39,777 bases of DNA, taken from Clostridia bacterium (GTDB lineage: Bacteria; Bacillota; Clostridia; UMGS1883; UMGS1540). Made by a program: the position numbers and the translations under genes. Shown in pieces: positions 1,101 through 4,150 of this stretch. The stretch covers positions 1 to 39,777 of the forward strand of contig JAQXGO010000022.1 of the NCBI GenBank assembly GCA_029006755.1. The letters run 5' to 3'. How positions within the stretch are numbered: the first letter of the stretch is position 1; every line of letters begins with the position of its first letter. Under the pieces are notes generated by a model. It saw nothing but the letters and a program-made list of their open reading frames with translations, made no database searches and had not been told where the DNA came from.

Positions 1101-1176
1101 TCCTCCTTAGCTCAGTCGGTAGAGCATGCGGCTGTTAACCGCAGGGTCGTTGGTTCGAGTCCAACAGGGGGAGCCA
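1101..1176 (+). tRNA. tRNA-Asn (anticodon GTT)
   Basis: An intact 76-nt tRNA with an encoded CCA end. The acceptor strands TCCTCCT and AGGGGGA pair, with one G-T pair. The D-arm is GCTC/GAGC, the anticodon stem TGCGG/CCGCA with loop CTGTTAA (anticodon GTT at 1134-1136), and the T-arm GTTGG-TTCGAGT-CCAAC. The discriminator is G. It lies in the same orientation downstream of the 5S gene and is followed at once by a rho-independent terminator. Its 5' half is duplicated twice upstream. Confidence 0.97.
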
Positions 1177-1179
1177 CGT

Positions 1180-1209
1180 CGGAGCAAGTTACGTTTGCTC
1201 CGATTTTTT
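1180..1209 (+). terminator. Rho-independent terminator of the rRNA/tRNA-Asn unit
   Basis: The stem CGGAGCAA/TTGCTCCG, with a short GTTACGT-type loop, is followed by ATTTTTT. It begins four bases after the tRNA CCA end, so it ends the rRNA-tRNA transcript. A diverged second copy lies at 3671-3706. Confidence 0.9.
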
Positions 1210-1252
1210 ATTGCATAAAAAATCAGTCACTCGCTTCACTGCTCCTCCTCTT

Positions 1253-1332
1253 TCGCAAAAGGTCACGGCAAGTCACTCGGCTCGTTTGTAAGCGCACTCG
1301 CTGTCGCTTTGTTGCCTACCAACCTTTTGCGA
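1253..1332. repeat. Palindromic repeat, copy 1 (TCGCAAAAGGT...ACCTTTTGCGA)
   Basis: An ~80-bp imperfect palindrome whose ends are the perfect inverted repeat TCGCAAAAGGT and ACCTTTTGCGA. The interior carries TAAGCGCACTCGC-like text shared with copy 2 at 3706-3786. In both places it directly follows a terminator of the same sequence family, so terminator and palindrome form one module that is present twice around the AT-rich island. Confidence 0.8.
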
Positions 1333-2270
1333 GTAAGCGCCTGCGGCGCAAATGTATCTAAACCGTTTGTTATGTTTTGAATACTTATTTTAAAACTACC
1401 TGAAAACTGCTTTATATCAACATCAATGTAATTTGAAAACTTTAAGCACTCATTCCAATCTTTTATTAAATGCCCATTGTTGTATTTTATCAAGCCTTGA
1501 ATGATACCTCTTAAATCATAAGTGTTTTTTATCATTTGCTTTTTAATTTGGTCTGTTGATTGTTTCCCTTTATAATCATTCTCAAGACAACAAAAAATAT
1601 TGTTTATATTTGAATAGTTATTTAGCACTTTATAAATATAGTTTCGGTTGTTTGCTCCGTTTAATGATATACAACAATATTCTTCATCAACTTTAATCTT
1701 ATTCTGCCAAACAAGTTGAACGAATGAAAACAAGTCTAAACAACTTTCAAATATAAATAATGCTTTTGGGGTTGTGGTGTTCTTGGGTTTATAGAAAAAG
1801 CCTGTATATCTTTCTTTGGTGTAATTACATTTATAATTATTATTTGTTAAAGTGCCTTTTTTGGTAATTGCTACAATGTTTGTTTTTTCTTCATCTTCGT
1901 ATGTGATGAAGCATAGATTATAATTCTTATCAACCATTAAACAATTATGCTTTATCATATTCTCAATAACAAACCTTTCAAAACCTCTTGATGTTAGATA
2001 AGCATAAACACGACTAAAAGCCTTTGACCTTGTTTCTCCGTCTGCTGATGTTAATAGATTTTCTTTTATTATATACCGCAAATCAACGTTTGAAGATGTT
2101 TCTTTTATTGTGTGGGTTGAAAGATATGTATTAAACTCTTTTTCAACATCTTTTTTATATACCTTGTAATAGTAGTAGTTCAATAAATATAGCGACTGCC
2201 TAAAATCTAACTCCAAAAACTCTTGAAGAAAAAACAAAGGCGGATAATTAAAACCTGTGTAAAGATGTTT
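1263..2270 (-). pseudogene. Truncated DUF3991/Toprim-domain protein (mobile-element gene remnant)
   Basis: The frame runs from a stop at 2271-2273 to a stop at 1263; the only plausible start is TTG at 2237. The N-terminal text (YPPLFFLQEFLELDF) resembles the end of a CHC2-type zinc-finger region. The middle matches the DUF3991 pattern (TSRGFERFVIENMI, then NLCFITYEDEEKT and YTGFFYKPKN). ALFIFESCLDLFS and the following CCLENDYKG look like a Toprim-like fold. Such proteins are cargo of plasmids and integrative elements. Both ends look broken: the zinc finger is missing, and the last ~35 codons read into the palindromic repeat (TFAPQALTRKRLVG). The region is very AT-rich. I recognised the family by pattern only, without alignment. 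Confidence 0.65.
1355..1368. repeat. ATCTAAACC direct repeat, copy 1
   Basis: TATCTAAACCGTTT at the left border of the AT-rich island, just inside palindrome copy 1. Related copies at 2533-2546 and 3645-3658 share ATCTAAACC followed by a TT-containing tail. The three divide the island into two cassettes. Confidence 0.6.
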
Positions 2271-2344
2271 CTACAACTATCAATATCTATACACATATTA
2301 TTAAAGGTCTTGACGACATAGACGAATTAGAGATATGCGTATAA
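2252..2344 (+). pseudogene. Tyrosine recombinase (integrase), C-terminal remnant
   Basis: About 30 codons in frame end at TAA 2342-2344 and begin right after a stop at 2249-2251. They read CKDVSTTINIYTHIIKG, then LDDIDELEICV. This is the typical end of phage- and ICE-type tyrosine integrases (GHxDVSTTxxIYTH), including the catalytic tyrosine of the IYTH motif. Everything upstream, including the RHR residues, is missing. It faces away from the DUF3991 remnant, and the two fragments abut at about 2250, so a deletion or rearrangement probably joined them. A strong terminator follows directly. Confidence 0.75.
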
Positions 2345-2348
2345 CACG

Positions 2349-2373
2349 AAAACAGGGCGATTGCCCTGTTTTT
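2349..2373 (+). terminator. Rho-independent terminator after the integrase remnant
   Basis: Perfect 9-bp stem AAACAGGGC/GCCCTGTTT with GATT loop, followed by TTTTTC. It starts five bases after the integrase stop codon. Confidence 0.9.
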
Positions 2374-2393
2374 CATTTGTAAAAATAATGTTA

Positions 2394-2422
2394 TTGAATT
2401 ATGCTATAAAATATGCTATAAT
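2394..2422 (+). promoter_or_regulatory. Promoter-like sequence in the island
   Basis: TTGAAT, 17 bases, then TATAAT. It points toward the acyltransferase gene, which starts about 290 bases downstream. The long leader and the AT-rich setting leave its use uncertain. Confidence 0.4.
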
Positions 2423-2439
2423 TTAAATGTAAATTATTA

Positions 2440-2545
2440 GAAACATTTTGGCAACTGTCAAATAACTGTCAAGCAAAAAATAAGGACTTGAAAGCCTTGA
2501 TTTTACAGGGGTTTGAGATATTAACAGAATGTCATCTAAACCATT
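2440..2545. other. Possible attachment-site region of the lost integrative element
   Basis: Within the gene-free stretch 2374-2710, about 100-200 bases past the integrase end, lie the short direct repeat GCAACTGTCAA/TAACTGTCAA and the partly dyad text GAAAGCCTTGATTTTACAGG, then the second ATCTAAACC repeat at 2533. Short arm-type repeats and a core next to the int 3' end are usual in Firmicute integrative elements. This is inference from position and style; no second att copy was identified. Confidence 0.3.
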
Positions 2546-2546
2546 C
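2533..2546. repeat. ATCTAAACC direct repeat, copy 2
   Basis: CATCTAAACCATTC, which shares 13 bases with copy 3 at 3645-3658. It separates the integrase/DUF3991 cassette from the acyltransferase cassette. Confidence 0.65.
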
Positions 2547-2710
2547 AGTTTTTATGCGGGTTTGCTTATCTTTTGGAAAATTTTATTGGGAGAAGAAAGG
2601 TAGATGTCACACCGTTTTTGCCCAGACTTGCACTACGGACACGCATAAACAGACGTAAAAAACCAGAAGTTTTTGTATTGAGAGTATAATAAATCTTTGG
2701 AGGGAATAAA

Positions 2711-3601
2711 ATGTTGGTTAACAATTTAATGAATGAAATCGGATTTACTAAAGATGAGCAAAATAAATATTATGAATATAAAAATTTGATTGGAACCAGA
2801 ATGGATAGCTATGCCGAAGATTTTATGCGCGGAAAACTATCATTTAACGAAGTGCTGGATAAGGTACATAAATTTCAGAGTTGTGGATTACATCAATACA
2901 CAATAGATTTACTGTTTGTTCTTGAATGTACAAGTTTTTTGCTTGAAAAATATGAATCTAATGGCATATCGAAAAAAATATTTATCGATGCCATGAAAGA
3001 TATTAAATATAAAGTTGAGGAATGTATTCGTGTAAAAAATATATTTGGAATTTTTGTTGTAAAATGGTATGAAAAATTTCTTGACTTAAAACGAATTGCA
3101 TTGGGAAGATTGCAGTATGATATTTCAACATACAATGGAGATGCAATTACAATAAATAATTACACTATACATGAAGGAGATTTTGTACTCTGGTGTCATA
3201 TTCCATCCTCAGGTCCGCTTAATCCGGAATTGTGTATTGAGTCTTTTAAAATGGCATATGATTTTTTTGCAGATAAATTAAATAACGGTATTTTACCCAT
3301 TATGTGTTGTTCTTGGCTGTTATATCCGCAATACAGGGAAGTATTCGGAGAAAAATCTAATATAGCCAACTTTAAAAGTAATTTTGAAATAATTGATGTT
3401 CAAAACAAAGAGAAATTTGACGAAATGTGGAGAGTGTTTGGCGTGGAGTGTGACAGTATAGATATAAACGATCTTCCTTCTAATACCACTATGCAGAAAA
3501 ACTTTATTCAGTATATGAAAAAAGGATATAGCTTTGGCGTAGCAACCGGTTTTATTTTATTTGATGGTGAAAATGTTTTAACGAAAAATAACAATAAGTG
3601 A
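2711..3601 (+). CDS. NAT_N/GNAT_C-type acyltransferase-domain protein
   Basis: A 296-aa protein, intact, with a good ribosome site (GGAGGG) eight bases before ATG. The first half is helical. The second half contains the pattern of the acyltransferase family described by NAT_N and GNAT_C domains: WYEKFLDLKRIALGRLQYD at about 120-140, GDFVLWCHIPSSGPL near 157-171, SFKMAYDFF, then CCSWLLYPQYREVFGEKSNI near 200-219 and a C-terminal GVATGFILFDGE. The acyl substrate is unknown. It is the only intact gene of the AT-rich island, which suggests recent arrival or selection. No partner gene is next to it. Family recognition is by motif memory, without alignment. Confidence 0.7.
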   Translation: MLVNNLMNEIGFTKDEQNKYYEYKNLIGTRMDSYAEDFMRGKLSFNEVLDKVHKFQSCGLHQYTIDLLFVLECTSFLLEKYESNGISKKIFIDAMKDIKYKVEECIRVKNIFGIFVVKWYEKFLDLKRIALGRLQYDISTYNGDAITINNYTIHEGDFVLWCHIPSSGPLNPELCIESFKMAYDFFADKLNNGILPIMCCSWLLYPQYREVFGEKSNIANFKSNFEIIDVQNKEKFDEMWRVFGVECDSIDINDLPSNTTMQKNFIQYMKKGYSFGVATGFILFDGENVLTKNNNK

Positions 3602-3644
3602 GCTGCGCTTTCTTTATCGAACTGTTGAAATTGTGTTTTTTATG

Positions 3645-3658
3645 CATCTAAACCATTC
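3645..3658. repeat. ATCTAAACC direct repeat, copy 3
   Basis: CATCTAAACCATTC, 44 bases after the acyltransferase stop. It is identical over 13-14 bases to copy 2 and marks the right edge of the island, just before the second terminator-palindrome module. Confidence 0.65.
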
Positions 3659-3670
3659 GGAACTCCTGCG

Positions 3671-3706
3671 TCGGAGCAAGCTTTATATCGCTTGCTCTGA
3701 TTTTTT
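3671..3706 (+). terminator. Rho-independent terminator, second copy of the tRNA-Asn type
   Basis: TCGGAGCAAGC pairs with GCTTGCTCTGA (one G-T pair) and is followed by TTTTTT. Bases 3669-3680 (CGTCGGAGCAAG minus its edges) match the terminator after tRNA-Asn at 1178-1209. It can end transcription of the acyltransferase gene. Confidence 0.8.
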
Positions 3707-3786
3707 CGCAAAAGGTCTCTTTCGCGTCGGCTATTCACTTGCAAGCGCGCTCATAACGCCTTTTGCTCGCTGCCAACCTTTTGCGA
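3706..3786. repeat. Palindromic repeat, copy 2
   Basis: 81-bp imperfect palindrome with the same perfect ends (TCGCAAAAGGT/ACCTTTTGCGA) as the copy at 1253-1332. The interior is diverged but keeps CTTGCAAGCGCGCTC, comparable to TTTGTAAGCGCACTC in copy 1. It directly abuts the T-tract of the preceding terminator, as in copy 1. Confidence 0.8.
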
Positions 3787-3874
3787 GTGTGTGTCTGAAG
3801 TGAATTGACTCTAAATCATTAGCTTCTTTCCGAAAAAGATATATTGGATGTTTTTCCAGCTCAAAGTCATTGTT

Positions 3875-4150
3875 CTATATTATTCTGTTTTTGTTTTTGC
3901 TTGATAAATAAGGAATAATATAAAGTCTAATCATTCCGACAATTAATGAAAGTATTGTAAATGATTTACATATAACTCCAGCAATGGAAAAATTGTTGTC
4001 AATAGAACCCCTCTTACGAAAGTTGTATTTTTATTTCCATAGGCAAGGGTGGATAGTACTTTTGCTAACTTTTATATCCCTGCAAAAAAACTAAACCTAA
4101 AACGAAAAACAATATGCTAAAAAAATAGTTGATATAGTTTTTATTTTGCG
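3875..4150 (-). pseudogene. Possible decayed small membrane protein
   Basis: The 568-base stretch between the acyltransferase and the capA-like gene has no intact gene. On the minus strand, downstream of capA, two hydrophobic segments can be read in different frames: INYFFSILFFVLGLVFLQGY, then a shift and a stop, then SIAGVICKSFTILSLIVGMI followed by RLYIIPYL and a stop at 3875-3877. This fits a two-helix membrane protein broken by a frameshift and a nonsense codon. The AT-rich composition can create hydrophobic frames by chance, so confidence is low. Confidence 0.3.

Follow-up and report, generated by a model that had tools for sequence, protein, structure and literature searches.

What stands behind the tRNA-Asn gene near the start of contig JAQXGO010000022.1 of a Clostridia bacterium, and how was it assembled there? 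A sequence-only reading of the window (the whole stretch of 39,777 nucleotides analysed here) had noted two terminator-palindrome modules behind this gene, an AT-rich stretch between them and remnants of a mobile element within it. All three are present: the modules lie at 1178-1332 and 3669-3786, though diverged; GC content is 27-32% in 500-base windows within 1251-3250, compared with 37-45% after 4250 (read to 8000); and the remnants are a Toprim_2/DUF3991 fragment and the C-terminus of a tyrosine integrase. A feature that was not in that reading, a second repeat which we call the joint, leads to a different account of the origin of the region. We consider it probable that the stretch from 1177 to ~3832 consists of mobile units forming a chain anchored on the tRNA-Asn gene that precedes it. 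The anatomy of this chain (Table 1) is well supported.

The joint repeat and the inserts that it bounds

The joint is a 23-mer, ATCTAAACCRTTCGGCTYTTCCA, found at the end of some palindromic units and of many that bear genes. The joint core, ATCTAAACCRTT, stands at 1356, 2534 and 3646, and no further copy with up to 1 mismatch was found on either strand of the whole 39.8-kb window. After dinucleotide shuffling, the mean number of cores in 1341-3700 was 0.029, and the observed three were reached in 0 of 1000 shuffles. The three cores divide the stretch into palindromic unit 1, element A, cassette B and palindromic unit 2; at joints 2 and 3 the right arm is missing or degraded.

Table 1. Features of the chain behind tRNA-Asn and of its surroundings (window coordinates)
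Feature	Position	Strand	Remarks
tRNA-Asn(GTT)	1101..1176	+	Intact, CCA encoded; anchor of the chain; ARAGORN, Rfam
Palindromic unit 1	1177..1369	+	Terminator, second T/A hairpin, linker, 80-bp palindrome, GCGCCTGCGGCGC hairpin, tail to joint 1
Intrinsic terminator of tRNA-Asn	1178..1212	+	Left end of unit 1; -15.0 kcal/mol, z -5.3
Palindrome copy 1	1253..1332	+	11-bp inverted termini; fold -28.4, 2/200 shuffles equally good
Joint 1	1356..1368	+	attL-like (left attachment site), ATCTAAACCGTTT; then an element-A arm in place of the usual GGCTCTTCCA
Element A	1356..2546		Both ends match G140:C5, behind tRNA-Pro(ggg) in another family
DUF3991/Toprim_2 fragment	1366..2237	-	Toprim_2 1.6e-8; DUF3991 4.3e-4, below its cut-off
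Tyrosine-integrase C-terminal remnant, then terminator-like hairpin	2260..2343	+	By homology; 28 aa, no Pfam match of its own
Joint 2	2534..2546	+	Right end of A and left end of B; usual right arm GGCTCTTCCA missing
Cassette B	2534..3658	+	Between joints 2 and 3; one convincing gene, no recombinase found
Acyltransferase-like gene	2711..3601	+	Intact; NAT_N 9.2e-13, GNAT_C 3.9e-35
Joint 3	3646..3658	+	ATCTAAACCATTC; then a degraded arm and CGTCGGAGC of unit 2
Palindromic unit 2	3669..3832	+	Terminator and palindrome; ends near the degenerate fourth joint
Terminator 2	3669..3705	+	-19.7 kcal/mol, z -6.9
Palindrome copy 2	3706..3786	+	Different preferred fold, -24.7; 2/200 shuffles equally good
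Degenerate fourth joint	3810-3828		After unit 2; score 22, 1/2000 shuffles as good
Stretch like part of the L293 DeoR/YgjV cassette region	4001..4148		68.5%; possible further unit remnant

The ends of element A can be placed by comparison with other genomes. A relative in genome G140 matches the window at 1356-1420 (78%), 1399-1605 (93% over 207 bp, L243) and 2260-2553 (80%), its homology beginning on the left joint and stopping at the right joint to within a few bases. In G197, window 2260-2546 is 90% identical and the alignment stops at the joint core, ahead of GGCTCTTCCA. The ends of element A thus coincide with direct repeats in other insertions, both ends in G140 and the right end in G197. 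Since the homology begins and ends on joints, both palindromic modules lie outside the insertion. Furthermore, the left joint lacks GGCTCTTCCA both in G140 and in the genome under study (G000), which fits recombination of element A within the joint core.

Element A itself is decayed. A 324-aa open frame (1263-2237, minus strand) extends over joint 1 into the palindromic repeat, and the DUF3991/Toprim fragment is the only candidate remnant of a mobilisation-type gene, no relaxase having been seen. For the integrase remnant, a homologous 101-aa piece in L243 matches PF00589 (1.6e-14). At a contig end elsewhere in G000 (C64, L179), 72 bp identical to window 2312-2383 (the integrase end and terminator) are followed by a nuclease/barstar-like gene pair and a DeoR-type gene, as read from translations, ending at a joint. 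Cassette B is flanked by the cores at 2534 and 3646 as direct repeats resembling left and right attachment sites (attL/attR). No recombinase or transfer gene was found among its frames of at least 80 aa; these are the acyltransferase-like gene and an antiparallel 80-aa frame inside it, the latter not searched.

A unit, as we picture it, would start right behind a CCA, whether a tRNA's or that of the unit before it, in most cases with a terminator, and would close in ATCTAAACCRTTCGGCTYTTCCA; its cargo could be a palindrome, a gene or a whole element. The palindromic unit would be the smallest, non-coding kind, terminating transcription of the tRNA and supplying a landing site. The ancestral locus would have been tRNA-Asn with two tandem palindromic units. 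Element A may then have entered by means of its own tyrosine integrase, recombining within the ATCTAAACC-RTTYG core and so splitting a joint into attL (1356) and attR (2534), and would have decayed afterwards. Cassette B, which has no integrase, may have arrived or been stranded through the same site specificity, in the manner of a cis-mobilizable element. With two inserts present, and joints as their flanking repeats, the empty site would therefore be expected to hold two tandem modules, rather than one. Such an arrangement is seen in L087 of genome G001: when the flanks of the window are joined at the core (1178-1364 plus 3655-3800) they align along its two-unit tandem. The syntenic tRNA-Asn locus of G002 is a chain as well.

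Other arrangements of this sort were seen in passing. A further chain in G000 (C63:45676-45895, L245) has two joints 197 bp apart followed by a unit that is palindrome-like by eye and unmatched by the model described below. In G001 (C9; L174, 1472-4737) a serine-recombinase domain fragment, a TIR-domain protein and a DUF1016/YhcG nuclease lie between two joint-like sites, the first of them degenerate. Behind tRNAs in L282, L283 and L243 there are units that, by eye, are filled with rows of small hairpins with TATATT- or GAAATAT-like spacers.

The palindromic unit in other genomes

The two palindrome copies of the window, of 80-81 bp, share perfect 11-bp outer arms, TCGCAAAAGGT/ACCTTTTGCGA. The label “palindrome” is generous for these stretches, because the inner stem is partial and copy 2 prefers another fold. 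In a local search the two modules were 82% alike in the terminator and 71% in the palindrome, and the 40-bp linker of the first (1213-1252) is absent from the second. Unit 1 has a counterpart of the same kind behind tRNA-Asp in G004, at 75.7% from the tRNA T-arm to the joint. At the Rfam gathering threshold, the only matches in the window were to rRNA and tRNA.

Exact arms occur twice in G000 (1.78 Mb in 118 contigs), in 2 of 59 other genomes and in 6 contigs of a named collection. Eight copies, the window's own pair plus six taken from the named collection, were used to build a model, which they match by construction. With this model the family yielded 2 copies in G000 and 3, 3, 4, 6 and 10 in its five other genomes. 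In the order, 18 of 28 genomes, G000 included, matched at E <= 0.1, with up to 33 matches in one genome; two of the 18 matched only weakly (G020, 4e-4; G025, 0.01). Three further genomes, labelled uncultured Oscillospiraceae, Clostridiales and Clostridia, gave 24, 3 and 23 copies, and in the class 37 of 291 genomes, again with G000, matched at E <= 1e-5. No third copy was found in G000 by the model at E <= 0.1. The earlier reading had held that a palindrome scattered next to unrelated terminators would point to two independent copies; such scatter is indeed seen in relatives, behind many tRNAs and elsewhere, but not in G000 with its two copies. A general presence behind the tRNAs of G000 was also rejected: in the 140-150 bases behind tRNAs at 30 of its 40 tRNA matches, the palindrome was found behind tRNA-Asn only.

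A sizeable share of the copies stand at a set distance behind a tRNA gene. A set of 61 copies was compiled from 63 listed of 76 matches (duplicates and weaker matches excluded), 2 being dropped for short upstream DNA; 18 of them have a tRNA no more than 130 bp upstream, at a distance of 59-77 bp in every case. Similarly, 7 of 15 copies picked later from the class matches sit 64-68 bp behind a tRNA. Six of the 7 copies in G100, whose C1 is a single contig of 2.56 Mb, were inspected, at 5 loci: three are 65-66 bp behind tRNA-Glu, Met and Cys, one is 159 bp behind tRNA-Arg, one is a second unit behind the Cys copy, and one has no tRNA in the 1.5 kb inspected.

Behind the CCA, the composite unit runs through a CGTCGG-terminator, a T/A hairpin, a linker and the palindrome, often followed by a GCGCC..GGCGC hairpin; in some units the joint GCATCTAAACCRTTCGGCTYTTCCA forms the end, ~190 bp past the CCA. 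Joint-closed copies in this family number 4 of 12, namely window unit 1, both tandem units of L087 and the tRNA-Asp unit of G004; joints also follow palindromic units of other families (L195, L197, L198, L203). The 5-mer at the linker end is complementary to an upstream 5-mer, in the terminator 5' arm, of the same copy in 38 of 61 copies, compared with 15% for the upstream DNA of other copies (for the 28 copies with rarer 5-mers, 17 copies compared with 6.7%). This suggests that a second pairing, between linker end and terminator 5' arm, may be maintained in palindromic units.

A unit-like terminator and linker without the palindrome lies upstream of an rpsF-like gene in G000 (C56:14080-14115, L006). 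Beside another palindromic unit, L040 (1-235) holds tandem repeats that by eye resemble an antisense tRNA T-arm/acceptor half. An antisense T-arm-like motif (TCGAACC context) also occurs tens of bases past the terminator in L188, L192, L201, L206 and L314 and behind tRNA-His of G000.

Shared units and rival explanations

Some units are met behind different tRNAs. A ~1.7-kb cassette, encoding YgjV- and DeoR-like proteins in its G000 copy, lies behind tRNA-Cys in G000 (C1) and behind tRNA-Ser in G080 (C54), in families f1 and f19, at 96.8% over 1703 columns; the alignment runs from the CCTCCA that the two tRNA ends share to 3 bp beyond the joint. A 165-bp non-coding unit, whole or partial, was found behind tRNA-Asn, tRNA-Met and tRNA-Tyr and behind joints. 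Among 38 loci there were 91 cross-genome blocks of at least 100 bp, 75 of them without a tRNA gene. Eleven of these 75 start at a CCA joint in both loci, where random placement gives 0.007, and in 9 of the 11 the CCA belongs to a tRNA at one locus and to a joint at the other; about 7 of the 11 involve the 165-bp unit, and the blocks are thus not independent. In the class (n=291) 20 genomes had the exact 23-mer; allowing 1 mismatch raised this to 24 and allowing 3 to 36, the reversed-pattern control matching in 3 of 291. A same-strand tRNA lies upstream, within 1.5 kb, in 7 of the 21 joint loci scanned.

What might move such units? In G107 a 376-aa tyrosine integrase (PF00589 4.4e-33, phrog_1) stands next to a joint that follows tRNA-Cys, on the margin of a phage-like region, and another joint follows ~18 kb further on; our interpretation is that a diverged joint ending in GCCA would form the right end of this element. 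Distantly related to this enzyme (33% over 86 aa) is the integrase piece carried by the G140 relative of element A. For CCA-to-CCA movement, the likeliest agent would be a putative tyrosine recombinase working at the 23-bp end of a unit in circular form. There may be two processes, with element A using the joint core and the CCA-bounded units meeting the tRNA at its CCA. More tentatively, and with rather less confidence than for the chain itself, these loci could represent a tRNA-anchored gene-cassette system of Clostridia-type bacteria, in which small coding or non-coding units, mostly with a terminator at the start and one conserved 23-bp end at the close, are stacked directly behind the CCAs of many different tRNA genes or behind each other and pass between species, the tRNA arrays serving as integron-like capture platforms and the palindromic repeat being the minimal unit.

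Several observations weigh against the chain and its proposed mechanism. The window integrase survives only as a C-terminal remnant, which leaves its specificity to inference. Past the CCA, tRNA ends and joints have little in common, which would be unusual for a tyrosine integrase, and 64 of the 75 tRNA-free blocks lack a CCA joint at their start in one or both loci. Just 6 of the 61 palindrome copies have a joint in the next 90 bp (up to 2 mismatches), namely the four family copies named above and two degenerate ones in G019, the others differing in their tails; 43 of the 61 are not within 130 bp downstream of a tRNA. Of the 36 genomes with joints, 12 have matches with 2-3 mismatches only, some of them coding-like (L183, L185), and 20 of 63 distinct joint contexts have no terminator-like hairpin after the joint, including that of the 97%-identical cassette in G080. 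The alignment with L087 holds well in the palindromes and joint but poorly in the terminators and linker; a strain with the empty site was not found, and the reconstruction uses a different genus. In viral contigs the exact 23-mer gave 0 matches, and the integrase-piece pattern matched 7 stretches of which 0 were confirmed as relatives. Finally, nearly all of the genomes are drafts and many joints lie at contig ends, where mis-assembly is possible.

A different route for the units, unlikely in our judgement but the best of the alternatives, is integron-like or single-strand (HUH/Y1-like) movement, in which circular units are inserted after the CCA by a recombinase that reads a folded strand, with tRNA ends as primary site; units would then be conserved at the 3' end alone and carry at the 5' end a hairpin that varies in sequence. 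Only one unit end is indeed conserved, and the same units occur behind tRNA CCA and joint CCA. A terminator-like hairpin of variable sequence follows the joint in 43 of the 63 contexts and precedes it in 15, by a crude rule that requires a fold of the 55 bases following the joint and a T run. The attC sites of integron cassettes lie close behind or overlap stop codons; likewise, among 25 joints examined in chains, 11 are within 72 bp past a stop codon, 2 of these overlapping it, most of the rest closing non-coding units or sitting further from a stop codon. Against this, neither an integron integrase nor an HUH enzyme came to notice next to the chains, though no dedicated search was made, and the integrases seen (the element A remnant and that of G107) are phage-type tyrosine integrases.

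Less probable again is that the modules are two independent REP-like (repetitive extragenic palindromic) terminator repeats between which unrelated DNA was acquired horizontally, without any site-specific event. As this would have it, the repeat occurs dispersed, many copies being away from tRNAs and many without a joint; the presence of three joints, which shuffling did not reproduce, and the ending of element A on the joint in other genomes speak against it.

The origin proposed earlier, one integration at tRNA-Asn that carried a copy of the downstream terminator-palindrome to the far side and then decayed, is very improbable: same-orientation modules do flank an AT-rich insert with integrase and Toprim remnants, but they are only 71-82% alike and belong to a dispersed family, copy 2 has no linker and no tRNA 3' sequence, and the joints bound two inserts, with both modules outside element A. 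Integration beside the tRNA-Asn 3' end and subsequent decay survive from that proposal; the copying of a module from the tRNA-downstream region does not. Target duplication was rejected, as the repeat is without the tRNA 3' end, is not a near-identical copy (71-82%) and is a dispersed family; a tRNA-derived attachment repeat was rejected too, as the joint and the tRNA-Asn end differ.

Known systems and neighbouring features

Integron gene cassettes are short gene units in chains, each with one recombination site near the stop codon. The units described here are likewise short and chained, with one site-like sequence per unit, in 11 of 25 cases close behind a stop codon, whereas their anchor is a tRNA end and a terminator usually leads the unit. 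Tycheposons are cargo elements at tRNA genes with tyrosine recombinases; in these respects they resemble the present elements, and they differ in their hosts. Repetitive extragenic palindromes and bacterial interspersed mosaic elements (REP/BIME) are dispersed intergenic palindromes near terminators. The palindrome here is also dispersed and intergenic in relatives, with two copies in G000, but it is part of a composite unit and keeps a fixed distance behind tRNAs (18 of 61 and 7 of 15 copies, as given above).

REP/BIME are named as a palindromic class in a passage of PMC8040213. Accretion of integrative and conjugative or mobilizable elements (ICE/IME) with cis-mobilizable elements (CIMEs), as treated in passages of PMC5704250, is like the present locus in its tandem elements separated by short direct repeats, its decay, its tRNA-linked site and its pairing of one element bearing an integrase remnant with one lacking it; here, in contrast, the repeat, the joint, consists of non-tRNA sequence and is met again behind other tRNAs. 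The ssrA islands of Dehalococcoides, according to passages of PMC3146451, lie in tandem downstream of an RNA gene between direct repeats of 20 bp, and 15 of the islands have no integration module. Their tandem layout behind an RNA gene, bounded by direct repeats, is shared with our locus, but their recombinases are of the serine type and one gene alone serves as target, its own 3' end forming the repeat, and palindromic units are not mentioned in the passages on them.

Accretion of elements at tRNA genes is already known. What differs here is that the shared attachment-like sequence is not tRNA-derived and travels with the units, and that the same cassette can occur behind different tRNAs in different families; no description of this joint or unit turned up in the literature searches, which is weak evidence of novelty. 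If confirmed, the system would explain a widespread post-tRNA repeat not named by Rfam, would provide a 23-bp tag for finding mobile cassettes (regulators and TIR- and YhcG-type genes being among those seen), and would raise the question of how a recombinase uses CCA ends.

Upstream of the chain, ~189-bp tandem repeats at 593-1100 each hold the 5' half of tRNA-Asn, cut near the anticodon. The truncated copies lie around 727 and 916, ahead of the intact gene.

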